Positions 30,324 to 64,000 of a stretch of DNA of 64,000 nt are shown one piece after another; within the stretch, counting starts at the first letter, position 1; each line of letters opens with the position of its first letter. The notes beneath the pieces were generated by a model. It worked only from the letters and a program-made list of their open reading frames with translations. It was not told where the DNA came from and ran no database searches. Where the stretch lies: positions 6,314,501-6,378,500 of the forward strand of contig NC_088787.1 in the NCBI RefSeq assembly GCF_949628265.1, given 5' to 3'. The stretch comes from Cloeon dipterum (lineage: Eukaryota; Arthropoda; Insecta; Ephemeroptera; Baetidae). The translations under genes were made by a program, and so were the position numbers.

Positions 30324-32791
30324 ATGTACGATAAAATAACGAAAATAATACGGCACCGAAAATTCGCCTCGGATCGCATTCGAGCCGCAGCCGCGGATTG
30401 GGAAGTGAAACTCGAGCCCAACTTCGAGCTTAATCATTTTCCTCAGTTGCGTAAGTATTAAAATTATATTCTTACCTGGGACCATCACATTTTAGTGGGT
30501 TTTGGGGGTTTTTTTCGAATTTTTTTCATCACAGGTCGTAGATTTCTTTTGGTATTTTGATAAATTTATTTTCTTGGCAAAGAAATTTTAAAAATTATGA
30601 ATATTACACTAAATTCTAATTCTCTAATTTTTATTTTGTAGCAACAGACGTGATTGCGAAAATTGTGCTCAAACTGATGGCGAAAAAATGCACCAAGCTT
30701 GTGAGGGAGAAAGAGGAAATGGAAGTTCTGATGCTCCCAGTCCTTAGCCTCTTCCTCGCCATGAGGCCCGCAAAAATTGATCTAACCGCCTTTCTTACGT
30801 TTTGTCCGATGCGTCTGAAATGTCGGTATTTCAAAGAGGTAACTAAAGAAATAAAATTAATAAATTCATTTTTAAATTTAAAAAATAATGTTTTAGGCTG
30901 TGATTCGAATCGCTACGAAGAACCCGGAGGTGGAAGAGTTGTCTCTGGCCACCCTTGCAAATCGATTCTTCCTCACAATTCATAAAGTAGCCGATGCTGA
31001 GCTGTTGGAAGCTCTGGGAAAATTAACCCGCCTAAAATCTCTGAGAATTGAGGAAATATTTGAATTTCGATTGGTCGACGTGATTGATCTATGCAAAAAC
31101 CTCCCGCATCTTGAAAACATCAAAATAGTGCTGGAAAAACAAACGACGCGCCTCATTCTTAAAAAACCGAAGATCGCCCAGAAAATGAAAACTGCTATGT
31201 CAAAGCTAAAGGTTTTCATGTTTGACACGCGTGGGATCAACATCAATACCAGCCTGATCAATCTTTGCGCTGAACATCTGCCCAATTTGCGAGTCATTGG
31301 CGACTTTTCGGACGGATTCAGCAGTTTTGACGACTGCAACATGATGGCTGACATCGCCGCCGATCCTGGAACCTCTAATCTACGCCATTTGCTGTTAGAT
31401 TTTTATGCCATTGAATGCTGCGATGAAATACAGATTGCTAAGTTTCCTTTGGCTCGTCATCTCAAGGTAAAGTATTTTTTTTAAATTATTATTAAAGACC
31501 CATCTTTGACGAAAATTTTGAGCACATCTATCTACTATTTTTGAGGGTCGAATTAGGTTAATGTAGATAATTTTTCCGACCAAAACGTCGAGCGCGACAT
31601 GCGTCTCACATAAGTATACAACATTTTTCCTGCTAAAACAATACGAATGCGTGAATTGCGCATGCGTCAAAGCTAGTTTGAGCACTTGCAGAGAGAACAA
31701 CCTGTACATGAACGACGAATGAATTCTTTTGTCAGATTAAGCCATATTTGACGCATGCCCAGATCTCACATAATCTCACATACGCATGTTCTGGAGGTAA
31801 AAGGTCCATTTTACCGAATTTGACCTTCAAAAATCGATTGGTGTGCTCAGAAATTTCGTCAAACTTTTAGTCTTTAATAATTTTTTCCTAATCAATAGTT
31901 AAATTTAATTTTCTTCGTATATTAATTAAAACCCTTATTTTCTAATTTAATCAGATCAGCACTTGGCCGGACGATGGCGTTGAGGAGCACTACTTGGAAT
32001 CTTGGCTTTCGCAGTTGACAAACTTGGAAAGTTTGCAGATTGAATTTTGTGTCCCGCCAGACGTAATTCGCCGGTTTCTGGAAAAATTTGGACCGAGTTT
32101 GAAAGCCCTGAATATTATATACTGCATCGACGATCCCAACGAAACGAATTTATCGTTCAGCGATATTTTCGCTCTCTGCCCGAAGTTGGAGCGCCTCCAC
32201 TTGGGCGGGAACATCCTTGAGGACGCGGCACCTCTCACGACTTTCAGCCACCTCAGAGAACTCGGATTGGAATTTTTTCGGTAACGAAAATTAATTTACT
32301 CCCTTCATTGACACTATTTATATAATTTGAATTCGCGTAGGAAGTTTAACAACCGAATTAAACTGAGTGAAATTCTGCGAGCGCCCCTCTTGGAAAAAAT
32401 CACCTTTGAAGGATCCTGTTTGGACTTTGAAGATCTGCAGAAAACCACCGCTTTAATAGCCGACAAGACAATATTGAGAGGATTAAAAACTCTCCATGTT
32501 AGTGATAATTGGCGTTCATTCAGTGGCTTGAAAGCTGAATATTTCCAAGAAATTTCCAAGTTCATCAAATGTGCCGTGACATCGATTCCCGGTTTAAAAG
32601 ATGTAAAATTTGACGTTAATAATCTGTGCAGTGGCTACTCAGTGCTGGCAAGGAGCATCAGGGATGGAAAAACTCAAAATAATGATGTTCCTGGCGTCAC
32701 CCAATTTTTCGCGGGTCAAACCATCGATGACGAACTATTGAATTTGTACGTGGATGAAGAGTTGATTCAAATGCTTGATAAATTTTTTTAA
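30324..32791 (+). CDS. F1: LRR / F-box-like protein
   Basis: Five exons join in phase: 30324-30450, 30642-30838, 30897-31466, 31955-32280 and 32341-32791, giving 556 residues. The start is the ATG of MYDKITKIIRHRKF. Near residues 40-60, FPQLPTDVIAKIVLKLM resembles a degenerate F-box (LPxDVIxKIhxxL). Irregular leucine-rich repeats follow: LTRLKSLRIEEI, LPHLENIKIVL, LTNLESLQIEF, CPKLERLHLGG, LRGLKTLHVSD. F-box/LRR proteins usually bring substrates to SCF ubiquitin ligases, but the F-box call is weak, so only an LRR scaffold is safe. There is no signal peptide, so the product is intracellular, unlike its lectin neighbours. A MITE sits in intron 3. AATAAA follows at about 32835. The gene lies between L1 and D1 on the opposite strand. 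Confidence 0.7.
31492..31877. mobile_element. TTAA-flanked MITE in F1 intron 3
   Basis: Same family as the palindromic element at 17295: TTAAAGAC start, GGTCGAATTAGG, GCGCATGCGTCAAAG, AATCGATTGGTGTGCTCAGAAA and TTAA end. It is more diverged than the kinesin copy and has an insert in the centre. Identical copies lie in F2 and F3. Confidence 0.7.
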
Positions 32792-33145
32792 TGGTTGCCA
32801 TGCGCTTTCATATGTTAGTTTTTTATGGTTTTTAATAAAATTTTCGAAAGAAATACGAACCATTCATAGTTTAATTGATAATAAAATATACCTCTAAATT
32901 GCGATGGTTTTGAGTAGAGGTCTCATAGCTAGACAGTTGATTTCAATGTGATTTATAAATGTTTTATTTAATACTAAAAGAAATGTGTAAAAAAAGATGA
33001 ATAATGAAAGCACAGCTGATTTTTGAGGTCTTTGGAAATAGGAAATAAACATGTTTTAGTTCACACAAAATTATCCAACTTTATAAGCCAAAAAATAACA
33101 ATGCGAAATTTCAAACAAACTCGGATAAAGTTAGACTTTTAATAT

Positions 33146-33876
33146 TTAAAAGTTAATCTGCTTGCATAGCGTTAGGAATGAATGATCGAATTTGCAGAAA
33201 AAAATGGGCACTTTAGCTTTATCAAAATAATCATTGTGGGAGACACGAACAGGACTCGGTTCTTCGCTGCCGAACTGTTGGAAATATTGGGAGCTCATCT
33301 CTTCGGATTGGTTTATTGGCTTCATATAGGCAGGAACCTCTTCTGAAGTGCTGCACCAGCGCACTGCTCCTTTCGAGTCTTGGAAAGTTTCATCCAAGAG
33401 AACAAAATTTTCATCTGTTGCGAATAAACCGCGTGTTTAATCTGGTCTCAAATCAATTTTGTTCTAATGCGTACTCCAAGGAACTAGGACGCCATCTTTG
33501 TTTTCCATGAATAAAGATTTCTTTTTGACAAATTGATGGAGCATTTTCATTCTGTCGAGCGTGGATTGCGTCACTGTCACCAAGGTTCCGTTTGCTGCCG
33601 CACACTTGGAGGCAGCGCCCGCAGGAGGGAAGCCCTGTGACAATAAAGCTCTGAAAAATTCTAGTTTAAAAAAAATGGGGGGACTAATTGCCTTTTTATC
33701 ATCAGTGATTTTATTCGTAAACACGTCGTTCAAGGGGGTTGGTTTAAAATTTTCCACTGCGAGGAATCAAATAAAATGATAAAGAATTTTTTCTAATTTA
33801 AATATTACTCAGTTCCATGCAAGCTTCCTTCCAAGTCAAATTTTTCGGTTGCAAATATTTAAAGATACAACGAGAG
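33146..33876 (-). CDS. D1: divergent C-type-lectin-like gene (3' part)
   Basis: Three exons read in phase on the - strand: 33809-33876, 33475-33756 and 33146-33414, about 206 residues. Lectin-like pieces are YLQPKNLTWKEACMEL (the TWxEAxxxC helix), KCAAANGTLVTVTQSTLDRM (NGTLV..) and KGAVRWCSTSEEVPAY, then DKAKVPIFFCK near the end. EPN/WND calcium ligands are absent, so sugar binding by the usual route is unlikely. No upstream exon with a signal peptide was found, so the gene is either partial or its first exon is not recognised. It converges with F1, leaving about 350 bases between the stops. Confidence 0.5.
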
Positions 33877-34109
33877 CTGTTGAATTACCAAAATACTTAG
33901 AAAGGGAATAATAAAAGAACATAATTATTTTTTTTTACAAAATTGGTTATTTCAATTCAACTGTTTTAATTTTAAATTTCATTGCATTGATTTATTCAAT
34001 AATTTTGAACCATTACATTATTAAATTTTATATAACCAAAAATTTAATGTTTACGATAATAAAAGCATTAAATTTTTTAATTTCTGAGCGAATTGAATGC
34101 AATTTTAAT

Positions 34110-34329
34110 AGTTTAAAAGTTCAATCTCACAAATAATCAAGTTTTCAAGTTAGTGAATTCCTGAATAGGTTTTCATGTTCCAGACCAGTAAAACCTCCCT
34201 TCTGCGCCTAAGAAATCCAATAGTAGCTTGCGGGAAGATTCTGCCCTACATTAAAATTAAATTAATAAATCATTTAGATAACGAAATTTCACTCACGGAT
34301 AAATTCAAAGAGTGCGCAGAGTTTTCGTC
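34110..34329 (-). pseudogene. Degenerate lectin-domain exons downstream of S1
   Basis: On the - strand this stretch matches the last lectin exon of the L genes (AGAAGGGAGGTTTTACTGG, TATTCAGGAATTCACTAA) but lacks the middle that codes EPN and WND. It also holds the 3' end of lectin exon 2 with its GTGAGTG donor. It is a relic of the lectin domain that the S genes lost. Copies recur one and two periods later. Confidence 0.7.
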
Positions 34330-35020
34330 TGTCAGGGTTTTACGATCAATAATATTGGTACCGATATATTATGTTACATTATGTAATGTAAAATATTTTA
34401 GTGCCCAAAGGGCAGAGAGGAGGGAGAGTCTCAGATATTAAAAAAACCTCTAACGGAGAGGACTCGCGCTCGCTCTGGACAGGACTCTCCAGCCGATGGG
34501 CCATAAAAAAGGGTGCGGGGTGGACAAAAGCGTCCTGGTTACTACACCACACCAGTTTATTGATGATAGCGGCGAACAGTTCGTGCTTGGCTACCCTGAG
34601 GGAAGAGCGGCGGAGCGAGACAATCGAGAGAATTGCCCTATTGCTCACGCGTCGTCAGGAGAGCGAATGTGTGTGTGTGTGTGTGTGAGCAGGTTGTGCG
34701 CTCGCGGGAGGGAGGCTCTGGCGTTGCCTTGATTGATACTTGAGTTTCTCTCTCTGCTCTACCCTGTGGGTGCCTGAAAATTCACGTCGTTACATATCGG
34801 TACACAAAAATTATAAAAAGCAATCGTAATCTCGTCAGGAAAAATCATGACATAGGTATGGAAACGAAGTCAACTCTTTTCTTATCCGACGGGCTAATTA
34901 AATTCGTCAATCCCCCTATCTATAAATTGGGCTAAGGGAAAAGGACCGACACTCGTGACGAGAGACCTATGACGTGCTGACCACTTGCACACCGCTGGCG
35001 GCCCTTGCTCGACCTCGCTG
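34330..35020. mobile_element. Composite insert splitting the S1 lectin-domain exon
   Basis: The outer part (34330-34852) begins TGTCAGGGTT as in S0 and ends in a decayed inverse, ATCATGACA. Within it lies an extra GC-richer block of about 320 bases (about 34395-34720) with a GT run, absent or deleted in S0. The segment to about 35020 also has no match in the L genes. The family is unknown; an old virus-like or transposon fragment is possible but not shown. Confidence 0.45.
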
Positions 35021-36853
35021 ACATCGTGCCTTGATTCGTGAATAGCAATCTTCAGGCCTCTCTGGGATGATCAGGAACGGCTCAACTATAAGGAATAAAA
35101 ACGTGAAACAAAATATAATATAAATATCCTACAATTCGTGCACGCACGTCCCGGTCCCTTCTTAGGTGATTTTGTGGTCCCGGGCGGTAATCCCGAATAA
35201 ATAATTCTTTCGGTGACAGGCCCATCATCTAAAATTAATGTAATTTTGTAGTCTTAAATTAGTCAATGACGAGGTAAAAATCAAATTGTTGCCTTAATTT
35301 GCTTCTAAATTATGCATAAATGTCAACACTCACTTTTCGTAGTTTTGGGACAAGGTTGGCACTCATCGCTGTAAAAAAGACGTAATTATTCATTTATTAA
35401 AATTAGGTAAAATTTTGCCTTTACCTCAGCTGAGCATAACTTTTACGAATGGCTCTGAGTTCATTTTCACATCCATCTTTGGTACGGTTTATTTGTGCAA
35501 TTTCGTTCTTCAGATTTAGTACCAAATTTCTTTCCCGAATCAGTTGGGCCCTAACATTCTTCAGTTTTTTCCTTATGACTTCAACCAATTCGTTGTCCTG
35601 GTTAATTTGCACCGTTGCATTTTCCAGTTTTTCCTTCAAGTTGTCCATCAATTCATTTTTCTGTTCTAATTGTTGCGTCAGGTCCTTCAGTTCTTCCTTT
35701 TTATCTTCTTGGCCTAATTGTTCCGTTGCGTTTTTCACATCTTTCTTCACGGCTATGTAAGGCTCATTTCTCAGGTTCAATTGCGCCGTCAGCTCACTTA
35801 GTTTTTCCTCCTTTTCTTCCAACAAAACCTTGTCTAGGCCAATTTTCTCTGTCGCATTATCCAGTTTTTCTTTTATTAGACTCAATTGCACCATTGCCAT
35901 GTCGAGTTTTTCCTTCAAATCATTCAGTTCTTTCTTTACGTCTGCACATGGACTGCGAATTTTTAGCACAGTTAAAAGAGTCTGCATTTTTAAGCCGAAA
36001 GGCACTTACTCAGCAGAATCATCATAATCATAGTTTGGAGCTGTGTGTTCATCATCATCAGATAAATACTTCTGAAAATAGTAATTAAATTTATTATACG
36101 CACTTATAGTACATTTAAAGGCAACGATGTGCATGAAGTCGACACTCGTACGCAGATGTGAATGCTTTGACTCACAATCAGTCACACGATAGTAGCATTT
36201 TTTTATATAATTTTACTTACTAAAAATATTGTACTATCCAGTATCCACTTCGCATTTACGAGAAGGCCGCTTGGATTTTTTGTTAATTTTTGGGGGGTTT
36301 AGAAAATTTGTGGGTCTGCAAGTCGAAAGGATCCTTGTTTACTTCATAAAATCAGGAAACTGATTAAAATTTCGACTGTCTAAATATTCAGGCAATCAAA
36401 TTTTCATGGAATAAGAATGGAATTTTAATTTTAAATACGATTCTTAACTAAGAAATAAATCAAGCAAGCCAGATTTACAAAAATGTTATTAAAAAAATAA
36501 TCTAAAAATTATGGTCACTTAAAATCCCATCTCTATTTATTTATTTATTTATTTATTTATCTTTTGTTTTAAATTACAACCGTCTCTTAATATTTTAATT
36601 TTTTTATCGATATCAATCCTACAATCCTGGATGATTTTCACAACAAATAAATAGTATTTCCATAGTACAGCTATTATATGAAGCAATGTGAACAGTTTCA
36701 TTTGTTTCAAATCGAAGACATAAAGTCTACTAATATAAATACCTCGTCGGAGTTTGGAAATGCAGCCGCACTACCCTCAGGCTGCTGCTTAGCCGTCAAT
36801 GCGTCATGGCTGAAGGACAGAAGCACTAGCAAAATAATGCTTTTCCTGTCCAT
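34967..36853 (-). CDS. S1: short secreted coiled-coil lectin relative without lectin domain
   Basis: Six exons join in phase on the - strand: 36743-36853 (signal peptide MDRKSIILLVLLSFSHDALT), 36010-36071 (acidic KYLSDDDEHTAPNYDYDD), 35425-35952 (coiled coil, about 175 residues), 35334-35368 (DECQPCPKTTK), 35148-35228 and 34967-35085. The total is 311 residues. The tail RGRARAASGVQVVSTS is coded by insert sequence and is nearly the same in S0, which suggests the new ending predates the S0/S1 split. The rod is about 200 residues shorter than in S0. It is likely exported, perhaps forming coiled-coil pairs with the L rods; that is inference. Decay after loss of the lectin domain is the main alternative. 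Confidence 0.6.
36536..36560. repeat. TTTA microsatellite
   Basis: About six TTTA units in the S1 first intron. The repeat has the same unit count at 50069 and 63602, useful for judging how recent the duplication is. Confidence 0.8.
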
Positions 36854-36950
36854 GCTTTAGTAGGACTACAAACGAGCAAGAGCTTTTTCAGACTAGCAAA
36901 CGAGCGCCTTTATCGTTTTCGCTTTACATGCTCTGCGTCTGTTACAACAT

Positions 36951-36958
36951 CTTATCAG
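36951..36958 (-). promoter_or_regulatory. GATA-type site upstream of S1
   Basis: CTGATAAG on the - strand, about 100 bases before the S1 ATG. A TATA-like box is degraded here to CATGTAAAG, unlike the TATATAAAG of the L genes. Confidence 0.4.
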
Positions 36959-37039
36959 TGACCCTTTGACATCCCGAATGATGCGTCATTCTTAAAAATT
37001 AAAAGTAAATACTAGCTGCTTAAACTATTTTATAACATG

Positions 37040-37780
37040 AAATATATACCAGCCTGTTCAGCCTGTTGGCTCGCATTGTTAAGGCATTGTCAGGAGTGTC
37101 AAAGCAATTGGGGAGGTATTTGAGCAGTTGGGAGATCTACTGGCTACCCAACGTTAGAGATGGCAAAAAGTGGTTAGTTTAGTGACTCGAAATGCTCAAA
37201 TTGCTCAACGGGCTGGGAGGCGCACCGGCGCCGACTCGCCACTTGCTGGTTTTCGCATCTTTCCAGCGGCTTTATGGACAAATGTCTGGCGTTTTCAATG
37301 TCAGTCCTCGGTGCGGAGGCAAGTAGCCCTTGAGTGGGCTGGGTCCCTGAAATGTGCGGCCTGGTGCGCCCATGTTATCCGTTCGCGGTGTTATTGGCAC
37401 TCGTGCTAGTGCAGTGCGCGCCCTCCCCGGTCCGAGAGGACAGGGATGAAAAGAGCAAAAAAAAAAAAAATAAACAAAAATGTGGGAAACATTTTCTTGG
37501 TCAAATAATTTACAAAACTACGAAGAAGACGGTTAAAAGATTTCAAATAGCGTTGGGAAATTTTGTTAAAATTAAATAAAATCCTCCATGTGAAATTAAA
37601 AAATAAAATACGTCTCTCTTCCTGTAAGGTTGGCTAATTTTTGTAAATTCATGTATGATAATTTTTTGTTTGACAGAAAGTAAATTTAAATTTTGAATAA
37701 CCTCCGAAATTCACAAAAATTGGCGAGGAAATACTTATAAAAATAGAGGTGCGCAGAATGATATTTTCAACAGCCAGCAA
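37040..37780. other. Spacer between S1 and K'2 with inserted sequence
   Basis: This interval is absent from the matching spacer behind S0 (near 24295). It contains a SINE-like element and a piece resembling the L gene 5' flank (37480-37590). No gene seen. Confidence 0.5.
37237..37470 (+). mobile_element. SINE-like retroposon, copy C
   Basis: Same body as the 11828 element, ending in GGGATGAAAAGAGC and a 14-A tail. It lies in the S1-K'2 spacer and was copied with the unit to 50770. Confidence 0.6.
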
Positions 37781-38007
37781 AAACGAATAACTTGAAAGTC
37801 TAAACCGATGCATATGCAACCTGCACTGGAATGCTGCTTGGCGGCACAGTTTCCCTCTCTTGACAAGGCGCATAAGACAGAAAAATGTATTTTCCTGTAA
37901 TTATATAGGTTCTATCCGCAGTTAATTATGAATTATTAAGGTAAAACTGAGCTGCTCTTTTTAAACTGATTGTGAGTGAAGCCTTAAACTTGCTTTGTAC
38001 AGTCACA

Positions 38008-38253
38008 GATCCTCGGCAATTTTCAGTCAAGAAGGTAAAAATGGCTGTGCATATTTCGGGCTCCTGTTTGTGGTGTCGCAGCAGAAGAACTTGTTGAGGT
38101 TGCAGAATTTTTATTGCTATCAAAAATGCATAAATTGCATCCAAATTGATTTCTGGAATGATTACATTTTGTGTAAAGCACAAGGAATTTTAATAAAAGT
38201 AATTAATTTAAAAGGAACAAAGAGCAAAGAAGGTTTTTATTTTATTTTCTAAT
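38008..38253 (+). pseudogene. K'2: stray kinesin terminal exon and 3' UTR
   Basis: Same as K'1 at 24530: acceptor, lost kinesin stop, open former UTR and AATAAA are all kept. It lies directly downstream of L2 on the opposite strand. Confidence 0.8.
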
Positions 38254-38419
38254 TAACCTTGGTTTTGAAATTCTGTGACTAATCAAATCCATTATGTATA
38301 TTTATATATTCAACAATTTTAAACACATAATTAAATTTTTGATCCTCTTATGTAACCAAAAATTGTACTGACTTCAAAAGCGTTAAATTTATTAATTTCT
38401 GAGCGAATTGAATGCAGTT

Positions 38420-41234
38420 TTACTTATTTAAAAGTTCACCACAAACTTTCATCTCGCAAATAAACAAGTTTTTCTTTTCACAATGATAGTCATTCCAATA
38501 AAGATCATATCGATGTGAACGAAATTCGACTTCAAGACAGTGCTCCTTATCTCCAGCATTATTTGGCTCTCCGATGTTAAATTTAGTGAATCCCTGAATA
38601 GGTTTTCCTGTTCCAGACCAATAAAACCTCCCTTCTGCGCCCAAATCTGTGCCAGAAATCCAATAGTAGCTTGAGGGAAGGATATTCTTACCTACATTAA
38701 AATTAAATTAATAAATCATTTAGATGACGAAATTTCACTCACTGATAAATTCATGGAGTGCAGTATTTTCATCCCTTGACTCGATGATAGCCAACTCCAT
38801 GCCGAATAATTTGCAAAACTGTCCTGCCATGTGCCAGCTCAACTAAGGAATAAAAACGTAAAGCAAAAATTATTATAAAAATATCGAAGAGTTCATGCAC
38901 GCACCTTCTGTTTGCTCAGGTAATATTTTGATCCCGGGAAAAGGGGCAATAAGCTTGAAGAAATTCTTGAATCATCTGAAAATCAATTTGGTAATTTTTA
39001 ATGAGTGACGAGGGAAAATCAAATTATTGCCTCAATTTGCATTTAAATAGATGATCAATCACTCACTTTTCGTATTACTGGTACAGGTTAATTGTGCGAT
39101 TTCGTTCTTCAGTTTTACTGACAAATTTTGTTCCCGGATCAATTGAACATTTGCGTTCTCCAGTTTTTTCTTCACGAACTGCAATGAATCATCTTTCAAT
39201 TTCACCTGCGCTGTTGTGTTTTCGAGTTGTATCTGCGTGACTTCTAGTAACCTTTTTTCCTGGCTCAATTGGGCCGTCAGCTCCTTCAATTTTTTCTCCT
39301 TGTCTTCTAACAACGCACTCTTCTGGGCAATTTGTAGCGTTGAATTCTTTAGTTTTTCCTCCACGACTTCCAAAAGTTTAACATTCTGATTTAATTGTTC
39401 CTTCAAGTGCTTCAGTTCTTCCTCCATGTCTCCCAAAAGCTTAATTTTCTGGTTTAATTTCTCAGTCAGGTTCGTCAGGTTGTTATTGTCTTTGATGATT
39501 ATCATCTCTTTGACCTGAATCATTTCCACCGTTGCATTTTCCAGTTTTGCCGTCAAGTCTTCAACTAATTCCTTTTCCTGTTTGAATTGCATCGTCACAT
39601 TATTCAGTTCTTCCTTCTTTTCTTCCAGTTTTGCTGTCAAGTTGTTTACTTCTACCGTTGAGTTTTTCAGCTTTTCATCCACGATTTTGAACAACTCTTT
39701 GTCCTGGATCATTTGCACCGTTGCATTTTCCAGGTTTTCCCTCAAGTTGTCAATCGATTCATTTTTCTGGTCTAATTGTTCCGTCAGGTCCTTCAGTTCT
39801 TCATCTTTTTCTTTTAACAACGCTTCGACTTGGCTTAATTGTTCCGTCGCGTTCTTTAGATTTTCCTTCAAGCCTTCAACCAATTCCTTTACCTGTTTTA
39901 ATTGCATCGTCATATTATTCAGTTCTTCCAGTATTGCTGTCAAGTTGTTTACTTCTACCGTTGAGTTTTTCAGCTTTTCCTCCACGATTTTGAGCAACTC
40001 TTTGTCCTGGCTCATTTGCACCGTTGCATTGTCCAGGTTGTCCTTCCAGTTGTCAATCAATTTATTTTTCTGGTCTAACTGTTCCGTCAGGTCCTTCAAT
40101 TGTTTATCTTTGTCTTTTAACAACGGTTCGACTTGGCCTAATTGTTCCGTCGCGTTCTTTATTTTTTCCTCCGTGTCTCCCAAAAGCTTAATTTTCTGGT
40201 TTAAATCTTCCGTCAGGTTCATCAGCTTTTCGTCTTTGATTGTTAATGACGCGTTTTGCTGAGTTATTTGCATCGTTGCGTTGTCCAGTTTTGCTGTCAA
40301 GTCGTTTTTTTCTTTCGTTGAGTTTTTCAGCTTTTCCTCCACGATTTTGAGCAACTCTTTGTCCTGGCTCATTTGCACCGTTGCATTGTTCAGGTTTTCC
40401 CTCAAGTTGTCAATCAATTCATTTTTCTGGTCTAATTGTTCCGTCCTGTTCTTTAATTTTTCCTTCAAGTCTACAACCAATTTCTTTTCCTGGTTTAATT
40501 GTATCGTAACATTATTCAGTTTTTCCTTCTTTTCTTCTAACAACAATTTTTCCTGAGCCACCGCGTTTTCCAGGTTTCCCTCAGTGGCTTTTGCCAATTC
40601 TTTTTCTCTACTCAGTTCCTCCAGTGCGTCTTCCAGTTTTGCTGTCAAGTCTTTTTTATCTACCGTTGAGTTTTTCAGCTTTTCCTCCACGATTTCGAAC
40701 AACTCTTTGTACTGGATCATTTGCACCGTTGCATTGTTCAGGTTTTCCCTCAAGTTGTCAATCGTTTCATTTTTCTGGACTAATTGTTCCGTCAGGTCCT
40801 TCAATTGTTTCTCTTTTTCTTCTAACAACTCTTTGTTATTGTCTAATTGCTCCGTCACGTTTTTCAGGTCTTCCTTTACGGCTATATTAAGCTCAATTTT
40901 CAGGTTCATTTGCATCGTTGCATTGTCCAGGTTTTCCCTCAAGTTGTCGATCGTTTTATTTTTCTGGACTAATTGTTCCTTCAGGTCCTTAAGTTCTTCC
41001 TCCTTATTTTTTAACAACGTTTTGTCTTGCTCCATCGTGGTATTCAGTTTTTTCTGTTCTTCCTTCAAATCATCCCGTTCTTTCGTTAAGTCTGCACATG
41101 AACTGTAAATTGTTAGCACAGTTAAAAGAGTCCGCATTTTCGAGCCAATTAAGGTACTTACTCGACAGGACCAACAGTACTAACAGTACCAACAATATCA
41201 TCTTAATCATAGATTGGAACATCATGTTCACCAT
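38420..41234 (-). CDS. L2: long-stalk secreted C-type lectin
   Basis: Same layout as L1 with a longer rod, 846 residues. Exons are 41162-41234 (start ATG 41234), 39067-41091, 38905-38975, 38743-38842 and 38420-38691. Compared with L1 the rod gains 119 residues, loses 21 and gains 7, all multiples of seven. The lectin domain is almost unchanged (GEPNNAGDKEHC, YWNDYHCEKK), but the C-terminus reads KVCGELLNK in place of KICDEILNK. By eye it has about 25 N-x-T/S sequons in the rod. The upstream exon at 42004-42117 is again out of frame with the rod. Confidence 0.75.
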
Positions 41235-42003
41235 CAGATAAATACTCCTTTGAAAAAAAATAATTATTTTTTTCTACATATCTTTTAGTTGATTTAAAGG
41301 CTAAATGATCATGAAGTTGAAACTCGTACGCGGAAATTACTCAGTCCTACAGTAGCATTGAATTTTTTATATAATGTTATTTACTTAAAAAATGTTTACT
41401 ATCCACTGCGCCACGAGGCCGCTTGGATTTTCCGTTAATTTTATAGCTTTTAAATTTTAACGATCCTCATTATAGTTTTCAAAAGCTGTATCACAAAAAG
41501 TTGTTAATAATGCAATCCTAAAAGTACACAAAACTCGATCCGATGGGTACTGTTTTAAAAATGACAAGAGCTTATTTCAGCAAATTTGTAGGTCTGCGTC
41601 TGCAGGGCGAAAGGATCCTCGATTACTTCACAAAAGCAGGAAACTCATAAATAATTCGGCTGTAAAAATATTTTGGCTAGAAAATTTTCATGAAATAATA
41701 AAGGAATTTTAATTTTAAATAAATATTCTAAGTTTAGAAACACATCAAGCAAGCCAGATATACAAAAATGTTAACCAGAAAACTAATATACAAATTTTTT
41801 AAAATCAAAATCTATTTTTTTAATAATTATAATTGCGCTCCTAAATATTGTAATTTGTGTATCGATCCTGGATGGTTTTCACCGCAAATAAGAAACCCTG
41901 ACACTTATTTAGTATTTCCATAGTATAGCTAACATTGTATATTGTGCGAACGTTTCATTCTTTTCGAATCCAAGACAAAAAGTCTAATAATGCGTATATA
42001 TAC

Positions 42004-42117
42004 CTCGTCGTAGTTTGGAAATGCAGCCGCATCACTTTCCTCGGGTTGCTGCTGCTTAGCCGTCAATGCGTGGCTGAAAGACAGAAGCACCAGCAAAATA
42101 ATGCTTTTCCTGTCCAT
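42004..42117 (-). CDS. Upstream signal-peptide exon of L2
   Basis: Matches the L1 exon at 28471-28584 in its 38 codons. The next exon again reads into a TAA in this frame, so it would code a short secreted peptide or act as a leader. Confidence 0.5.
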
Positions 42118-42173
42118 CCTGTAGCTGGACTACAAACGAACAAGAGCTTTTTTCAGACTAGCAAACGAGCGTC

Positions 42174-51952: not shown

Positions 51953-54767
51953 TTACTTATTTAAAAGTTCACCACAAACTTTCATCTCGCAAATAAACAA
52001 GTTTTTCTTTTCACAATGATAGTCATTCCAATAAAGATCATATCGATGTGAACGAAATTCGACTTCAAGACAGTGCTCCTTATCTCCAGCATTATTTGGC
52101 TCTCCGATGTTAAATTTAGTGAATCCCTGAATAGGTTTTCCTGTTCCAGACCAATAAAACCTCCCTTCTGCGCCCAAATCTGTGCCAGAAATCCAATAGT
52201 AGCTTGAGGGAAGGATATTCTTACCTACATTAAAATTAAATTAATAAATCATTTAGATGACGAAATTTCACTCACTGATAAATTCATGGAGTGCAGTATT
52301 TTCATCCCTTGACTCGATGATAGCCAACTCCATGCCGAATAATTTGCAAAACTGTCCTGCCATGTGCCAGCTCAACTAAGGAATAAAAACGTAAAGCAAA
52401 AATTATTATAAAAATATCGAAGAGTTCATGCACGCACCTTCTGTTTGCTCAGGTAATATTTTGATCCCGGGAAAAGGGGCAATAAGCTTGAAGAAATTCT
52501 TGAATCATCTGAAAATCAATTTGGTAATTTTTAATGAGTGACGAGGGAAAATCAAATTATTGCCTCAATTTGCATTTAAATAGATGATCAATCACTCACT
52601 TTTCGTATTACTGGTACAGGTTAATTGTGCGATTTCGTTCTTCAGTTTTACTGACAAATTTTGTTCCCGGATCAATTGAACATTTGCGTTCTCCAGTTTT
52701 TTCTTCACGAACTGCAATGAATCATCTTTCAATTTCACCTGCGCTGTTGTGTTTTCGAGTTGTATCTGCGTGACTTCTAGTAACCTTTTTTCCTGGCTCA
52801 ATTGGGCCGTCAGCTCCTTCAATTTTTTCTCCTTGTCTTCTAACAACGCACTCTTCTGGGCAATTTGTAGCGTTGAATTCTTTAGTTTTTCCTCCACGAC
52901 TTCCAAAAGTTTAACATTCTGATTTAATTGTTCCTTCAAGTGCTTCAGTTCTTCCTCCATGTCTCCCAAAAGCTTAATTTTCTGGTTTAATTTCTCAGTC
53001 AGGTTCGTCAGGTTGTTATTGTCTTTGATGATTATCATCTCTTTGACCTGAATCATTTCCACCGTTGCATTTTCCAGTTTTGCCGTCAAGTCTTCAACTA
53101 ATTCCTTTTCCTGTTTGAATTGCATCGTCACATTATTCAGTTCTTCCTTCTTTTCTTCCAGTTTTGCTGTCAAGTTGTTTACTTCTACCGTTGAGTTTTT
53201 CAGCTTTTCATCCACGATTTTGAACAACTCTTTGTCCTGGATCATTTGCACCGTTGCATTTTCCAGGTTTTCCCTCAAGTTGTCAATCGATTCATTTTTC
53301 TGGTCTAATTGTTCCGTCAGGTCCTTCAGTTCTTCATCTTTTTCTTTTAACAACGCTTCGACTTGGCTTAATTGTTCCGTCGCGTTCTTTAGATTTTCCT
53401 TCAAGCCTTCAACCAATTCCTTTACCTGTTTTAATTGCATCGTCATATTATTCAGTTCTTCCAGTATTGCTGTCAAGTTGTTTACTTCTACCGTTGAGTT
53501 TTTCAGCTTTTCCTCCACGATTTTGAGCAACTCTTTGTCCTGGCTCATTTGCACCGTTGCATTGTCCAGGTTGTCCTTCCAGTTGTCAATCAATTTATTT
53601 TTCTGGTCTAACTGTTCCGTCAGGTCCTTCAATTGTTTATCTTTGTCTTTTAACAACGGTTCGACTTGGCCTAATTGTTCCGTCGCGTTCTTTATTTTTT
53701 CCTCCGTGTCTCCCAAAAGCTTAATTTTCTGGTTTAAATCTTCCGTCAGGTTCATCAGCTTTTCGTCTTTGATTGTTAATGACGCGTTTTGCTGAGTTAT
53801 TTGCATCGTTGCGTTGTCCAGTTTTGCTGTCAAGTCGTTTTTTTCTTTCGTTGAGTTTTTCAGCTTTTCCTCCACGATTTCGAACAACTCTTTGTACTGG
53901 ATCATTTGCACCGTTGCATTGTTCAGGTTTTCCCTCAAGTTGTCAATCAATTCATTTTTCTGGTCTAATTGTTCCGTCCTGTTCTTTAATTTTTCCTTCA
54001 AGTCTTCAACCAATTTCTTTTCCTGGTTTAATTGTATCGTCACATTATTCAGTTTTTCCTTCTTTTCTTCTAACAACAATTTTTCCTGAGCCAACGCGTT
54101 TTCAAGGTTTCCCTCAGTGGCTTTTGCCAATTCTTTTTCTCTACTCAGTTCCTCCAGTGCGTCTTCCAGTTTTGCTGTCAAGTCTTTTTTATCTACCGTT
54201 GAGTTTTTCAGCTTTTCCTCCACGATTTCGAACAACTCTTTGTACTGGATCATTTGCACCGTTGCATTGTTCAGGTTTTCCCTCAAGTTGTCAATCGTTT
54301 CATTTTTCTGGACTAATTGTTCCGTCAGGTCCTTCAATTGTTTCTCTTTTTCTTCTAACAACTCTTTGTTATTGTCTAATTGCTCCGTCACGTTTTTCAG
54401 GTCTTCCTTTACGGCTATATTAAGCTCAATTTTCAGGTTCATTTGCATCGTTGCATTGTCCAGGTTTTCCCTCAAGTTGTCGATCGTTTTATTTTTCTGG
54501 ACTAATTGTTCCTTCAGGTCCTTAAGTTCTTCCTCCTTATTTTTTAACAACGTTTTGTCTTGCTCCATCGTGGTATTCAGTTTTTTCTGTTCTTCCTTCA
54601 AATCATCCCGTTCTTTCGTTAAGTCTGCACATGAACTGTAAATTGTTAGCACAGTTAAAAGAGTCCGCATTTTCGAGCCAATTAAGGTACTTACTCGACA
54701 GGACCAACAGTACTAACAGTACCAACAATATCATCTTAATCATAGATTGGAACATCATGTTCACCAT
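51953..54767 (-). CDS. L3: long-stalk secreted C-type lectin
   Basis: Exons are 54695-54767, 52600-54624, 52438-52508, 52276-52375 and 51953-52224, 846 residues. It equals L2 except for a cluster of about eight substitutions between roughly 53879 and 54110. These change MSQDKELLKIVEE to MIQYKELFEIVEE, LVVDL to LVEDL and ENAVAQ to ENALAQ. The new version matches the neighbouring rod repeat, as expected from conversion between repeats. Confidence 0.75.
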
Positions 54768-55536
54768 CAGATAAATACTCCTTTGAAAAAAAATAATTAT
54801 TTTTTTCTACATATCTTTTAGTTGATTTAAAGGCTAAATGATCATGAAGTTGAAACTCGTACGCGGAAATTACTCAGTCCTACAGTAGCATTGAATTTTT
54901 TATATAATGTTATTTACTTAAAAAATGTTTACTATCCACTGCGCCACGAGGCCGCTTGGATTTTCCGTTAATTTTATAGCTTTTAAATTTTAACGATCCT
55001 CATTATAGTTTTCAAAAGCTGTATCACAAAAAGTTGTTAATAATGCAATCCTAAAAGTACACAAAACTCGATCCGATGGGTACTGTTTTAAAAATGACAA
55101 GAGCTTATTTCAGCAAATTTGTAGGTCTGCGTCTGCAGGGCGAAAGGATCCTCGATTACTTCACAAAAGCAGGAAACTCATAAATAATTCGGCTGTAAAA
55201 ATATTTTGGCTAGAAAATTTTCATGAAATAATAAAGGAATTTTAATTTTAAATAAATATTCTAAGTTTAGAAACACATCAAGCAAGCCAGATATACAAAA
55301 ATGTTAACCAGAAAACTAATATACAAATTTTTTAAAATCAAAATCTATTTTTTTAATAATTATAATTGCGCTCCTAAATATTGTAATTTGTGTATCGATC
55401 CTGGATGGTTTTCACCGCAAATAAGAAACCCTGACACTTATTTAGTATTTCCATAGTATAGCTAACATTGTATATTGTGCGAACGTTTCATTCTTTTCGA
55501 ATCCAAGACAAAAAGTCTAATAATGCGTATATATAC

Positions 55537-55650
55537 CTCGTCGTAGTTTGGAAATGCAGCCGCATCACTTTCCTCGGGTTGCTGCTGCTTAGCCGTCAAT
55601 GCGTGGCTGAAAGACAGAAGCACCAGCAAAATAATGCTTTTCCTGTCCAT
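55537..55650 (-). CDS. Upstream signal-peptide exon of L3
   Basis: Identical to the L2 exon at 42004-42117, with the same out-of-frame relation to the rod. Confidence 0.5.
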
Positions 55651-55706
55651 CCTGTAGCTGGACTACAAACGAACAAGAGCTTTTTTCAGACTAGCAAACG
55701 AGCGTC

Positions 55707-55757
55707 TTTATCGTTTCGCTTTATATATGCTGTGCGTCTGTAACAACATCTTATCAG
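55707..55757 (-). promoter_or_regulatory. L3 promoter: TATA box and GATA motifs
   Basis: TATATAAAG near 55719-55727 and CTGATAAG at 55750-55757 on the - strand, as in L2. Confidence 0.45.
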
Positions 55758-56316
55758 TGACCTTTTGACGTCCCGAATAATGCCACTCTTAAAAAGTAAC
55801 AGCTGAAATTATTTATAATATGAATTGATATGGGAAACATTTCTTGGTCAAATAATTTAAAAATTTAATTAAATCAATGAAGAAGATAGTGAAGAGACTT
55901 CAAATAGCCGTCCCATTGAAGAACTTTCTGCTATTTTATTAATAAAATTCCGATGACGCTGTGCTCTCGTGACGAATAAATTTTTTATCAACTCGGGTTG
56001 CGACACCAAAAAGTCTAACAGCCGAGAGGAGGAAAGTTTGCGAAAATTCTGTAAGTGTAAAGTTCAAAACAGCTAAAAAATAATCACTTTCTTTGAGAAA
56101 AAATAGTTAAAGGGTTAGTATAAAAAATAAGCACACATGGTGCGTTAGGAAACTCTGTTAAAATTAGATAAATTCCTCTCTATTAATAATTTTATAGAAC
56201 CGAAATTGTACATTCAAAATATTTTTGCATTATAGCTGTGACAATTGCGATTAAGCTTGGCATTTTTTATCATCAATCCTCTTGGCGGCTTTGTTGTGTG
56301 AAAGAAAAAGGTCTTC

Positions 56317-56517
56317 TTATTTCTGCTCTTCTCTCCATGCCGGCCATCGCGAAGGTGATAACGGAGCAGGTTTATTGTCCTCAAATAAATGCCACAAATC
56401 CGACATTTTAAACTGTCTTGTGTTCTGCTTTTTGTGTTTCGTCTTGAGGTGTTGAATGAGCCGGCTTTCCTCGCGGAACGTCTTCACACAGTCGAGACAT
56501 TGAAACATCATCATCAT
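56317..56517 (-). CDS. Z3: small C2H2 zinc-finger ORF
   Basis: Same 66-residue frame as Z2, with a single C2H2 finger. Confidence 0.4.
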   Translation of the reverse strand: MMMMFQCLDCVKTFREESRLIQHLKTKHKKQNTRQFKMSDLWHLFEDNKPAPLSPSRWPAWREEQK

Positions 56518-57395
56518 CTTGACTTGCAATAACCAGCTAAAATTACTATTTTTTTCAAGTTTTTCAGGTTTTTGCACCTCCTAATTTCGGATTCTAAATG
56601 CATTCTCAGCAATAGCAAATTAATAGCACCCGTATACCCACCGTTGTAATCTCTTTGACCTTCTCTTAGCAGCTGAAGTTTAGGGATTCTTAATTTCCAC
56701 CCCTAAGTGGGGAATAACGGCGTTCGCTTTTATCATCAAAATTGGAGCATAATGGGGATGAAAGTGGATGATGGCCCTTTAGCTGGTCAGGGGAGATTTG
56801 AGACGAGTCCAACGATGGGTGGATTTTGCAATTCTGATGATAAGGACCAAAAATTTCCAATTTTGAAAAATAAATTTTTTAATTTTGATGCACGGAATTT
56901 CTTGATAGCAAAAAAACCGCCTATGAAATTTTCTGCAAAGTTCAAACATGGGACAGTATTTAAAAACATTTTCTATTTTTCAAAAATACATTCAGATTTT
57001 ATACTTTTAAATACATTCTGAACCCTTCAAAATGTGTTTTTTATTAAAATAAATTTAAAGCAATCATATTTGATCCTTTTTATACACAATGAGAAAAAAA
57101 TATATATTCGAATTGTAGCTGCACGCGTATTTTTGCCGCCACCAACCCTTAAAAAAATCTTCCCTGAGCAATGCGACCATTCTCTCCCTCCACCTGACGG
57201 CGAAGGGAGAGAACTGGGTTTTTGTTGTTGTTTTCCTTTCCACTCTCGCATCGTGGCCACGTGAACAACAAACAAAATTCAATAGTCTCGTCAATTTCGG
57301 CCCGAATTTCGCGCACAAAGTAGTTGTTGGACGGACAAGTGGCTGAATCAAACGCCCAAGTAACAGATTCGTGAGTTCAGATCACCTTTGCAGAC

Positions 57396-59857
57396 ATGTA
57401 CGATAAAATAACGAAAATAATACGGCACCGAAAATTCGCCTCGGATCGCATTCGAGCCGCAGCCGCGGATTGGGAAGTGAAACTCGAGCCCAACTTCGAG
57501 CTTAATCATTTTCCTCAGTTGCGTAAGTATTAAAATTATATTCTTACCTGGGATCATCACATTTTAGTGGGTTTTGGGGGGTTTTTCGAATTTTTTTTCA
57601 TCACAGGTCGTAGATTTCTTTTGGTATTTTGATAAATTTATTTTCTTGGCAAAGAAATTTTAAAAATTATGAATATTACACTAAATTCTAATTCTCTAAT
57701 TTTTATTTTGTAGCAACAGACCTGATTGCGAAGATTGTGCTCAAACTGATGGCAAAAAAATGCACCAAGCTTGTGAGGGAGAAAGAGGAAATGGAAGTTC
57801 TGATGCTCCCAGCCCTTAGCCTCTTCCTCGCCATGAGGCCTGCTAAAATTGATCTAACCGCTTTTCTTACATTTTGTCCGATGCGTCTGAAATGTCGGTA
57901 TTTCAAAGAGGTAACTGTAACAAAATAATAAATTCATCTTTAAATTTAAAATAATGTTTTAGGCGGTGATTCAAATCTCTACGAAGAACCCGGAGGTGGA
58001 AGAGTTGTCTCTGGCCACCCTTGCAAATCGATTCTTCCTCACAATTCATAAAGTAGCCGATGCTGAGCTGTTGGAAGCTCTGGGAAAATTAACCCGGCTT
58101 AAATCTCTGAGAATTGAGGAAATTTTTGAATTTCGATTGGTCGACGTGATTGATCTATGCAAAAACCTCCCGCATCTTGAAAACATCAAAATAGTGCTGG
58201 AAAAACAAACGACGCGCCTCATTCTTAAAAAACCGAAGATCGCCCAGAAAATGAAAACTGCTATGTCAAAGCTAAAGGTTTTCATGTTTGACACGCGTGG
58301 GATCAACATCAATACCAGCCTGATCAATCTTTGCGCTGAACATCTGCCCAATTTGCGAGTCATTGGCGACTTTTCGGACGGATTCAGCAGTTTTGACGAC
58401 TGCAACATGATGGCTGACATCGCCGCCGATCCTGGAACCTCTAATCTACGCCATTTGCTGTTAGATTTTTATGCCATTGAATGCTGCGATGAAATACAGA
58501 TTGCTAAGTTTCCTTTGGCTCGTCATCTCAAGGTAAAGTATTTTTTTTAAATTATTATTAAAGACCCATCTTTGACGAAAATTTTGAGCACATCTATCTA
58601 CTATTTTTGAGGGTCGAATTAGGTTAATGTAGATAATTTTTCCGACCAAAACGTCGAGCGCGACATGCGTCTCACATAAGTATACAACATTTTTCCTGCT
58701 AAAACAATACGAATGCGTGAATTGCGCATGCGTCAAAGCTAGTTTGAGCACTTGCAGAGAGAACAACCTGTACATGAACGACGAATGAATTCTTTTGTCA
58801 GATTAAGCCATATTTGACGCATGCCCAGATCTCACATAATCTCACATACGCATGTTCTGGAGGTAAAAGGTCCATTTTACCGAATTTGACCTTCAAAAAT
58901 CGATTGGTGTGCTCAGAAATTTCGTCAAACTTTTAGTCTTTAATAATTTTTTCCTAATCAATAGTTAAATTTAATTTTCTTCGTATATTAATTAAAACCC
59001 TTATTTTCTAATTTAATCAGATCAGCACTTGGCCGGACGATGGCGTTGAGGAGCACTACTTGGAATCTTGGCTTTCGCAGTTGACAAACTTGGAAAGTTT
59101 GCAGATTGAATTTTGTGTCCCGCCAGACGTAATTCGCCGGTTTCTGGAAAAATTTGGACCGAGTTTGAAAGCCCTGAATATTATATACTGCATCGACGAT
59201 CCCAACGAAACGAATTTATCGTTCAGCGATATTTTCGCTCTCTGCCCGAAGTTGGAGCGCCTCCACTTGGGCGGGAACATCCTTGAGGACGCGGCACCTC
59301 TCACGACTTTCAGCCACCTCAGAGAACTCGGATTGGAATTTTTTCGGTAACGAAAATTAATTTACTCCCTTCATTGACACTATTTATATAATTTGAATTC
59401 GCGTAGGAAGTTTAACAACCGAATTAAACTGAGTGAAATTCTGCGAGCGCCCCTCTTGGAAAAAATCACCTTTGAAGGATCCTGTTTGGACTTTGAAGAT
59501 CTGCAGAAAACCACCGCTTTAATAGCCGACAAGACAATATTGAGAGGATTAAAAACTCTCCATGTTAGTGATAATTGGCGTTCATTCAGTGGCTTGAAAG
59601 CTGAATATTTCCAAGAAATTTCCAAGTTCATCAAATGTGCCGTGACATCGATTCCCGGTTTAAAAGATGTAAAATTTGACGTTAATAATCTGTGCAGTGG
59701 CTACTCAGTGCTGGCAAGGAGCATCAGGGATGGAAAAACTCAAAATAATGATGTTCCTGGCGTCACCCAATTTTTCGCGGGTCAAACCATCGATGACGAA
59801 CTATTGAATTTGTACGTGGATGAAGAGTTGATTCAAATGCTTGATAAATTTTTTTAA
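57396..59857 (+). CDS. F3: LRR / F-box-like protein
   Basis: Exons are 57396-57522, 57714-57910, 57963-58532, 59021-59346 and 59407-59857. The 556 residues appear identical to F2. Confidence 0.7.
58558..58943. mobile_element. TTAA-flanked MITE in F3 intron 3
   Basis: Period copy of the elements at 31492 and 45025. Confidence 0.7.
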
Positions 59858-60211
59858 TGGTTGCCATGCGCTTTCATATGTTAGTTTTTTATGGTTTTTA
59901 ATAAAATTTTCGAAAGAAATACGAACCATTCATAGTTTAATTGATAATAAAATATACCTCTAAATTGCGATGGTTTTGAGTAGAGGTCTCATAGCTAGAC
60001 AGTTGATTTCAATGTGATTTATAAATGTTTTATTTAATACTAAAAGAAATGTGTAAAAAAAGATGAATAATGAAAGCACAGCTGATTTTTGAGGTCTTTG
60101 GAAATAGGAAATAAACATGTTTTAGTTCACACAAAATTATCCAACTTTATAAGCCAAAAAATAACAATGCGAAATTTCAAACAAACTCGGATAAAGTTAG
60201 ACTTTTAATAT

Positions 60212-60942
60212 TTAAAAGTTAATCTGCTTGCATAGCGTTAGGAATGAATGATCGAATTTGCAGAAAAAAATGGGCACTTTAGCTTTATCAAAATAATCAT
60301 TGTGGGAGACACGAACAGGACTCGGTTCTTCGCTGCCGAACTGTTGGAAATATTGGGAGCTCATCTCTTCGGATTGGTTTATTGGCTTCATATAGGCAGG
60401 AACCTCTTCTGAAGTGCTGCACCAGCGCACTGCTCCTTTCGAGTCTTGGAAAGTTTCATCCAAGAGAACAAAATTTTCATCTGTTGCGAATAAACCGCGT
60501 GTTTAATCTGGTCTCAAATCAATTTTGTTCTAATGCGTACTCCAAGGAACTAGGACGCCATCTTTGTTTTCCATGAATAAAGATTTCTTTTTGACAAATT
60601 GATGGAGCATTTTCATTCTGTCGAGCGTGGATTGCGTCACTGTCACCAAGGTTCCGTTTGCTGCCGCACACTTGGAGGCAGCGCCCGCAGGAGGGAAGCC
60701 CTGTGACAATAAAGCTCTGAAAAATTCTAGTTTAAAAAAAATGGGGGGACTAATTGCCTTTTTATCATCAGTGATTTTATTCGTAAACACGTCGTTCAAG
60801 GGGGTTGGTTTAAAATTTTCCACTGCGAGGAATCAAATAAAATGATAAAGAATTTTTTCTAATTTAAATATTACTCAGTTCCATGCAAGCTTCCTTCCAA
60901 GTCAAATTTTTCGGTTGCAAATATTTAAAGATACAACGAGAG
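60212..60942 (-). CDS. D3: divergent C-type-lectin-like gene (3' part)
   Basis: Exons are 60875-60942, 60541-60822 and 60212-60480, with no difference seen from D1 and D2. Confidence 0.5.
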
Positions 60943-61175
60943 CTGTTGAATTACCAAAATACTTAGAAAGGGAATAATAAAAGAACATAATTATTTTTTT
61001 TTACAAAATTGGTTATTTCAATTCAACTGTTTTAATTTTAAATTTCATTGCATTGATTTATTCAATAATTTTGAACCATTACATTATTAAATTTTATATA
61101 ACCAAAAATTTAATGTTTACGATAATAAAAGCATTAAATTTTTTAATTTCTGAGCGAATTGAATGCAATTTTAAT

Positions 61176-61395
61176 AGTTTAAAAGTTCAATCTCACAAAT
61201 AATCAAGTTTTCAAGTTAGTGAATTCCTGAATAGGTTTTCATGTTCCAGACCAGTAAAACCTCCCTTCTGCGCCTAAGAAATCCAATAGTAGCTTGCGGG
61301 AAGATTCTGCCCTACATTAAAATTAAATTAATAAATCATTTAGATAACGAAATTTCACTCACGGATAAATTCAAAGAGTGCGCAGAGTTTTCGTC
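61176..61395 (-). pseudogene. Degenerate lectin-domain exons downstream of S3
   Basis: Period copy of the relic at 34110. Confidence 0.7.
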
Positions 61396-62086
61396 TGTCA
61401 GGGTTTTACGATCAATAATATTGGTACCGATATATTATGTTACATTATGTAATGTAAAATATTTTAGTGCCCAAAGGGCAGAGAGGAGGGAGAGTCTCAG
61501 ATATTAAAAAAACCTCTAACGGAGAGGACTCGCGCTCGCTCTGGACAGGACTCTCCAGCCGATGGGCCATAAAAAAGGGTGCGGGGTGGACAAAAGCGTC
61601 CTGGTTACTACACCACACCAGTTTATTGATGATAGCGGCGAACAGTTCGTGCTTGGCTACCCTGAGGGAAGAGCGGCGGAGCGAGACAATCGAGAGAATT
61701 GCCCTATTGCTCACGCGTCGTCAGGAGAGCGAATGTGTGTGTGTGTGTGTGTGAGCAGGTTGTGCGCTCGCGGGAGGGAGGCTCTGGCGTTGCCTTGATT
61801 GATACTTGAGTTTCTCTCTCTGCTCTACCCTGTGGGTGCCTGAAAATTCACGTCGTTACATATCGGTACACAAAAATTATAAAAAGCAATCGTAATCTCG
61901 TCAGGAAAAATCATGACATAGGTATGGAAACGAAGTCAACTCTTTTCTTATCCGACGGGCTAATTAAATTCGTCAATCCCCCTATCTATAAATTGGGCTA
62001 AGGGAAAAGGACCGACACTCGTGACGAGAGACCTATGACGTGCTGACCACTTGCACACCGCTGGCGGCCCTTGCTCGACCTCGCTG
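61396..62086. mobile_element. Composite insert splitting the S3 lectin-domain exon
   Basis: Period copy of the insert at 34330. Confidence 0.45.
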
Positions 62087-63919
62087 ACATCGTGCCTTGA
62101 TTCGTGAATAGCAATCTTCAGGCCTCTCTGGGATGATCAGGAACGGCTCAACTATAAGGAATAAAAACGTGAAACAAAATATAATATAAATATCCTACAA
62201 TTCGTGCACGCACGTCCCGGTCCCTTCTTAGGTGATTTTGTGGTCCCGGGCGGTAATCCCGAATAAATAATTCTTTCGGTGACAGGCCCATCATCTAAAA
62301 TTAATGTAATTTTGTAGTCTTAAATTAGTCAATGACGAGGTAAAAATCAAATTGTTGCCTTAATTTGCTTCTAAATTATGCATAAATGTCAACACTCACT
62401 TTTCGTAGTTTTGGGACAAGGTTGGCACTCATCGCTGTAAAAAAGACGTAATTATTCATTTATTAAAATTAGGTAAAATTTTGCCTTTACCTCAGCTGAG
62501 CATAACTTTTACGAATGGCTCTGAGTTCATTTTCACATCCATCTTTGGTACGGTTTATTTGTGCAATTTCGTTCTTCAGATTTAGTACCAAATTTCTTTC
62601 CCGAATCAGTTGGGCCCTAACATTCTTCAGTTTTTTCCTTATGACTTCAACCAATTCGTTGTCCTGGTTAATTTGCACCGTTGCATTTTCCAGTTTTTCC
62701 TTCAAGTTGTCCATCAATTCATTTTTCTGTTCTAATTGTTGCGTCAGGTCCTTCAGTTCTTCCTTTTTATCTTCTTGGCCTAATTGTTCCGTTGCGTTTT
62801 TCACATCTTTCTTCACGGCTATGTAAGGCTCATTTCTCAGGTTCAATTGCGCCGTCAGCTCACTTAGTTTTTCCTCCTTTTCTTCCAACAAAACCTTGTC
62901 TAGGCCAATTTTCTCTGTCGCATTATCCAGTTTTTCTTTTATTAGACTCAATTGCACCATTGCCATGTCGAGTTTTTCCTTCAAATCATTCAGTTCTTTC
63001 TTTACGTCTGCACATGGACTGCGAATTTTTAGCACAGTTAAAAGAGTCTGCATTTTTAAGCCGAAAGGCACTTACTCAGCAGAATCATCATAATCATAGT
63101 TTGGAGCTGTGTGTTCATCATCATCAGATAAATACTTCTGAAAATAGTAATTAAATTTATTATACGCACTTATAGTACATTTAAAGGCAACGATGTGCAT
63201 GAAGTCGACACTCGTACGCAGATGTGAATGCTTTGACTCACAATCAGTCACACGATAGTAGCATTTTTTTATATAATTTTACTTACTAAAAATATTGTAC
63301 TATCCAGTATCCACTTCGCATTTACGAGAAGGCCGCTTGGATTTTTTGTTAATTTTTGGGGGGTTTAGAAAATTTGTGGGTCTGCAAGTCGAAAGGATCC
63401 TTGTTTACTTCATAAAATCAGGAAACTGATTAAAATTTCGACTGTCTAAATATTCAGGCAATCAAATTTTCATGGAATAAGAATGGAATTTTAATTTTAA
63501 ATACGATTCTTAACTAAGAAATAAATCAAGCAAGCCAGATTTACAAAAATGTTATTAAAAAAATAATCTAAAAATTATGGTCACTTAAAATCCCATCTCT
63601 ATTTATTTATTTATTTATTTATTTATCTTTTGTTTTAAATTACAACCGTCTCTTAATATTTTAATTTTTTTATCGATATCAATCCTACAATCCTGGATGA
63701 TTTTCACAACAAATAAATAGTATTTCCATAGTACAGCTATTATATGAAGCAATGTGAACAGTTTCATTTGTTTCAAATCGAAGACATAAAGTCTACTAAT
63801 ATAAATACCTCGTCGGAGTTTGGAAATGCAGCCGCACTACCCTCAGGCTGCTGCTTAGCCGTCAATGCGTCATGGCTGAAGGACAGAAGCACTAGCAAAA
63901 TAATGCTTTTCCTGTCCAT
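62033..63919 (-). CDS. S3: short secreted coiled-coil lectin relative
   Basis: Exons are 63809-63919, 63076-63137, 62491-63018, 62400-62434, 62214-62294 and 62033-62151. The predicted protein appears identical to S1 and S2. The window ends in its promoter region. Confidence 0.6.
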
Positions 63920-64000
63920 GCTTTAGTAGGACTACAAACGAGCAAGAGCTTTTTCAGACTAGCAAACGAGCGCCTTTATCGTTTTCGCTTTACATGCTCT

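Follow-up and report, generated by a model that had tools for sequence, protein, structure and literature searches.

The window analysed here, C2:6314501-6378500, is a 64-kb stretch of an assembly of 190.1 Mb in 10 contigs. Searches of this assembly yielded no run of six TTAGG repeats and no match to mitochondrial COX1 above the cut-off. It was compared with itself, and flanks of 60 kb on the right and 10 kb on the left were added to the analysis (positions are given in window coordinates, which continue past 64,000 in the right flank). The locus consists of repeated gene blocks, each with a leucine-rich-repeat-like (LRR-like) gene (F), a gene for a coiled-coil C-type lectin (S) and a shorter coiled-coil paralogue of S (s). 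The assembly contains three units of this array, the last of them set apart by its right end, and a trailing F gene (Fb) closes it. An older, diverged cassette with the same gene order (cassette 0) lies upstream.

The leading F gene (Fa) was located on the forward strand at 30324..32791, with exons at 30324-30450, 30642-30838, 30897-31466, 31955-32280 and 32341-32791. Two further forward-strand copies sit at the junctions between units, one at 43863..46324 (exons 43863-43989, 44181-44377, 44430-44999, 45488-45813 and 45874-46324) and one at 57396..59857; their exon limits were placed by hand from GT/AG sites and the reading frame. The five-exon structure and the 556-aa frame were open in all four copies, Fa, the two junction copies and Fb. 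The two junction copies and Fb encode one and the same protein, from which Fa departs at four residues. The best Pfam match of the F protein, to LRR_4, reached 24.4 bits, below the family cut-off of 27, and no F-box family was found in the Pfam search; the designation of F as an F-box gene was therefore dropped and F is termed LRR-like only. F-like matches in the genome numbered 94 at exon level, and the family looks large. One relative, 80-95% identical, was found about 290 kb upstream (C2:6051742-6054464); its cassette-like match concerned F only, and the 20 kb read contained no match to S or s.

The S genes lie on the reverse strand. The model of S1 (38420..42117) comprises exons 42004-42117, 41162-41247, 39067-41102, 38905-38975, 38743-38842 and 38420-38691. 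S2 (51953..55650) follows the same model and its product differs from that of S1 by 6 amino acids, while S3, outside the window, has an open six-exon model of 892 codons. An earlier S model, which began in a different reading frame and used an acceptor 11 bases further downstream, was replaced, as the six-exon model fits s, S0 (the copy in cassette 0) and S3; use of the out-of-frame start is possible. The domain order of the S protein was a signal peptide, recognised by eye, followed by a heptad coil and a C-type lectin domain. The lectin domain matched Pfam Lectin_C with an E value of 2e-17 and a score of 64.3 bits, the cut-off being 22.6; the NCBIfam search gave nothing useful. The translation contains GEPNN and YWNDYHC, which hold the EPN and WND motifs that bind sugar and calcium in C-type lectins. 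In the coil, a hydrophobic period of 3.5 was detected over the 666 residues examined, with a windowed power of 0.611 compared with at most 0.35 in 500 shuffles. The 892-aa S3 protein carries 33 N-glycosylation sequons, most of them in the coil. In the coil exon (39067-41102) the sequons often follow one another at intervals of 21 residues or of another multiple of 7, and this spacing suggests that the sugars of the coil may lie on one face. Taken together, the S product is predicted to be a secreted coiled-coil C-type lectin. At exon level at least 156 C-type lectin matches were counted in the genome when 150 of 396 candidates were scored, and this family too looks large. One S intron contains 22 bases (41399-41420, also at 27645-27666 and 54932-54953) that resemble by eye the 5' half of a tRNA and perhaps come from a tRNA-derived element; ARAGORN predicted no tRNA gene in the window.

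The paralogue s1 was drawn from reading frames on the reverse strand at 33149..36856, an extent that is provisional, and includes degenerate lectin exons at 34,140-34,320 and lectin-like pieces at 33,149-33,766; s2 (46682..50389, reverse strand) was assigned as its copy by unit identity. The stretch 34,140-34,320 shared 86% identity with the S exon region. Homology to Fb extends as far as the copy of 33,987, and homology to cassette 0 begins at the copy of 34,781. The decayed lectin exons, lying between F and s, mark the older cassette boundary. The stretch 37059-37473 is an interspersed repeat about 420 bases long, with at least 34 other places on six contigs at 85-87% identity when 40 of 3,297 candidates were scored.

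When the window was compared with itself by 31-mers, the dominant offset was 13,533, with 19,674 shared pairs, and the double offset of 27,066 gave 6,295 pairs. The match at +13,533 begins at 31,059, position 31,058 being the final mismatch upstream, and runs without indel inside the window; a match of this length rules out chance. The array is thus a direct head-to-tail repeat at constant period, the arrangement that tandem duplication by unequal crossover leaves. Unit 1 extends over 31059..44591 (the 3' half of F, s1, S1 and the 5' half of the next F), unit 2 over 44592..58124, and unit 3 begins with the in-window part 58125..64000 and continues to about 71,66x, where the trailing F gene follows. 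The original prediction had placed the start of the repeat at 31068, close to the computed one, and its junctions near 44.60 and 58.13 kb coincided with ours. It had ended the array at 64,000, the window edge, which was too early, for homology continues to about 74,576. It had further described the 13,533-base repeat as exact; the period and the absence of indels were confirmed, and the exactness was not, since 8 substitutions (no gaps) separate units 1 and 2 over 13,533 sites. These fall at 40,348, 40,351, 40,363, 40,368, 40,473, 40,508, 40,561 and 40,571, and outside the coiled-coil exon of S the two units showed no substitution in about 11,497 bases. Between units 2 and 3, the first 9,932 bases contained 4 substitutions, so that unit 3 is near-exact up to 68,056, and these 4 differences, like all 8 between units 1 and 2, lie inside the coiled-coil exon. 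The final 3,594 aligned bases of units 2 and 3 differed by 34 substitutions and 7 internal gaps, with an eighth gap at the end of the alignment.

This distribution of differences bears on whether the array was produced by the assembler, a reading in which the true units are fewer and a graph loop closed by a near-identical stretch of F repeated one block. False duplications are described as common in assemblies in a published account (PMC9516828), and the loop is feasible here: Fa and Fb are identical across 809 bases and, from there to 33,448, differ by a single substitution and a single gap, a loop through the identical stretch would also yield a hybrid F gene, and units 1 and 2 are separated at only 8 of 13,533 sites. 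A loop predicts identical units and the observed units differ, which makes the array informative against it. The sequences of S1, S2 and S3 are all distinct (private or shared sites number 6, 2 and many), and unit 3 ends on the right in a sequence of its own, with indels, so the block must exist in two real versions or more. A loop over a single block is thereby ruled out as the full account of the array, and the originally offered alternative, an assembly that repeated one block, is weakened. A wrong unit number is possible, as is alteration of coil sites by polishing; the coil sites are suspect because mis-mapped reads are expected in a repetitive exon, and this exon contains every one of the 8 sites that separate units 1 and 2. 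Overall, we regard an assembly with too many units as unlikely, though it deserves to be kept in mind. The difference of about 1% between units 2 and 3 over the final 3.6 kb could alternatively be allelic, with two haplotypes of a shorter locus set in tandem by the assembler. Three S sequences exceed what two haplotypes of a one-unit locus can supply, the units are near-identical over 9.9 kb, and the kinesin flank (17.9-19.5 kb), found once in the assembly, is not duplicated; we consider this heterotype duplication very improbable.

Since the trailing F gene, followed by downstream sequence peculiar to it, is available outside the window, the parentage of the F genes at the junctions could be examined. 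Both are hybrids, with a 5' part nearer to Fb and a 3' part identical to Fa. Right of 31,868, no substitution was found between the junction genes and Fa in 2,929 bases, whereas Fb differed from Fa there by 12 substitutions in 2,919 bases and 4 gaps. Left of 31,058, the junction genes differed from Fb by 33-34 substitutions over 3.6 kb and from Fa by 66 over 2.9 kb (99.05% and 97.7% identity over the compared stretches). The latter comparison covers 28,142-31,058, a part of the flank that shares homology with the ends of the units (2,898 aligned bases, with 66 substitutions and 16 gaps), contrary to the expectation that the flanks differ before the start of the repeat. Counted by alignment columns on the left side, Fa alone differed in 137 and Fb alone in 21, and in 17 Fa and Fb agreed against the hybrids. 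The switch lies in an interval at 31059..31867, repeated at +13,533 and +27,066, with the last allele of the trailing F gene at 31,058 to its left and the first allele of the leading F gene at 31,868 to its right. These 809 bases, the same across which Fa and Fb are identical, take in 408 bases of exon 3, up to its end at 31,466, and the adjoining 401 of intron 3. The duplicated block is thus flanked by homologous sequence and its junction is a hybrid of both flanks.

The same hybrid structure at both junctions supports their origin in an unequal crossover of Fb with Fa. The predicted crossover between two F genes was in this respect supported; its placement within exon 3 is only possible, the interval also spanning part of intron 3. 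A replication-based or end-joining duplication, with the F hybrids formed by later gene conversion, would draw on conversion tracts that are evident within the same cluster. At both junctions, however, the switch of the hybrids falls in the same interval and at the boundary of the units, and a crossover needs no extra step to put it there; the other routes appear improbable. For the crossover between Fb and Fa itself, a single simple exchange from the present Fb is insufficient, because the left part of the hybrids differs from Fb (34 substitutions and 7 internal gaps over 3.6 kb) and Fa agrees with Fb against the hybrids in the 17 columns above. Different alleles, or later divergence and exchange or conversion, are needed in addition.

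Cassette 0 occupies 20460..31058 and contains s0, S0 and the 5' half of Fa, in pieces 76-99% identical to the units. S0 (24968..28584, reverse strand) has 787 codons in its model and, compared with S3, shows three in-frame deletions, of 53, 45 and 7 codons. A tract of about 1.2 kb between S0 and S1 (26562..27770) was much closer in sequence than the remainder of the cassette, being made up, at an offset of 13,754, of matching runs 422, 138 and 647 bases long with 2 mismatches. Moreover, at all 8 sites separating units 1 and 2, the stretch 40348..40571 on the reverse strand, S1 carries the S0 allele. This tract and the common alleles are direct evidence, within these sequences, of exchange between cassettes, which may have run in either direction. 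Of the unit-2 alleles, the four at 40,348-40,368, present also in unit 3, have an exact in-register donor inside the coil at 40,688; among the coil copies searched, no exact internal donor was found for those at 40,473, 40,508, 40,561 and 40,571, the last two being private to S2.

Three of the four S copies carry a TAA stop at codon 53, in the reverse-strand exon at 41162-41247 in S1, 27408-27493 in S0 and 54695-54780 in S2, whereas the corresponding exon of S3 (68230-68315) reads TAT. The stop falls where S0, S1 and S2 agree and S3 departs. It looks derived, as the paralogue s1, inspected by eye, has Tyr at the matching position. The dN/dS between S0 and S3 was 0.37 in the second part of the coil (310 codons) and 0.23 in the lectin part (147 codons), and 1.08 across the first 329 codons, the region with the exchange tract; all three values come from small counts.

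These results suggested that two older cassettes, an unequal crossover between Fb and Fa and subsequent exchange tracts explain the array, a reading to which we assign a probability of roughly 0.7. At this arthropod locus, the starting point would have been a tandem pair of older cassettes, each comprising s, S and F. Fb, closing the second, would have paired with Fa, closing the first, and the unequal crossover would have duplicated the s-S-F block, with a further event giving the third copy. Each junction would have been left with an F gene whose left part resembles Fb and whose right part is that of Fa, and short exchange tracts (gene conversion) would later have altered the repetitive coiled-coil exon of S. 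The three units in the animal's DNA, the order of events, their recency and the functions of the proteins are what we infer from this structure. A recent duplication, one of the two readings originally offered, is supported by the absence of substitutions between units 1 and 2 over about 11.5 kb outside the coiled-coil exon. The equal microsatellite lengths, originally noted, were confirmed, as no indel separates the units in the window, and they add little to this. Insect-like mutation rates are about 2.9e-9 per site per generation. With this rate, the rule of three applied to about 11,497 bases places the last homogenisation no more than about 45,000 generations ago, an order of magnitude only.

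The process, unequal crossover with gene conversion, is of a known kind and an ordinary route of gene-family growth, and the instance is new. In a search of the literature on coiled-coil lectins and unequal exchange, no listed title concerned this locus, which by itself does not prove that it is unpublished. If real, the array would be a clean and young example that has kept all partners, namely the two parental F genes, their hybrids at the junctions and the older cassette. It could show how, in a lectin family of immune type, unequal exchange spreads new copies together with a stop codon that disables them. The array is useful, too, for distinguishing a real array from an assembler loop by sequence alone. 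It is conceivable, though doubtful, that this is a young immune lectin locus of variable copy number, in which recurrent exchange, both among cassettes and among the internal repeats of the coil, rewrites the coil arm of the secreted lectin and has spread the nonsense codon to three of four copies, with one open gene at the array end.

Among known lectins, the mosquito proteins mosGCTL-1, -3 and -20 were the closest solved relatives of the S lectin domain, the best being mosGCTL-1 (E 2.5e-20); this similarity concerns the lectin domain only, the long coil lying outside the query. The shrimp protein MjCC-CL (PMC5645147) has a signal peptide, a coiled coil and one C-type lectin domain, and its coil signals through Domeless. 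Judged only from its sequence, S shares this architecture, with a coil much longer than that of MjCC-CL (666 residues examined, bearing most of the 33 sequons). The closest counterpart in mode of origin that we considered is Sdic of Drosophila melanogaster, described in PMC7475035 as a recent tandem array of near-identical units with widespread gene conversion, whose copy number must be checked by read depth and qPCR. Sdic and the lectin array are alike in their recent, near-identical tandem units and in gene conversion, while the genes involved differ. The copy number of Sdic varies between strains and this variation has been measured, whereas the lectin array is known from one assembly.
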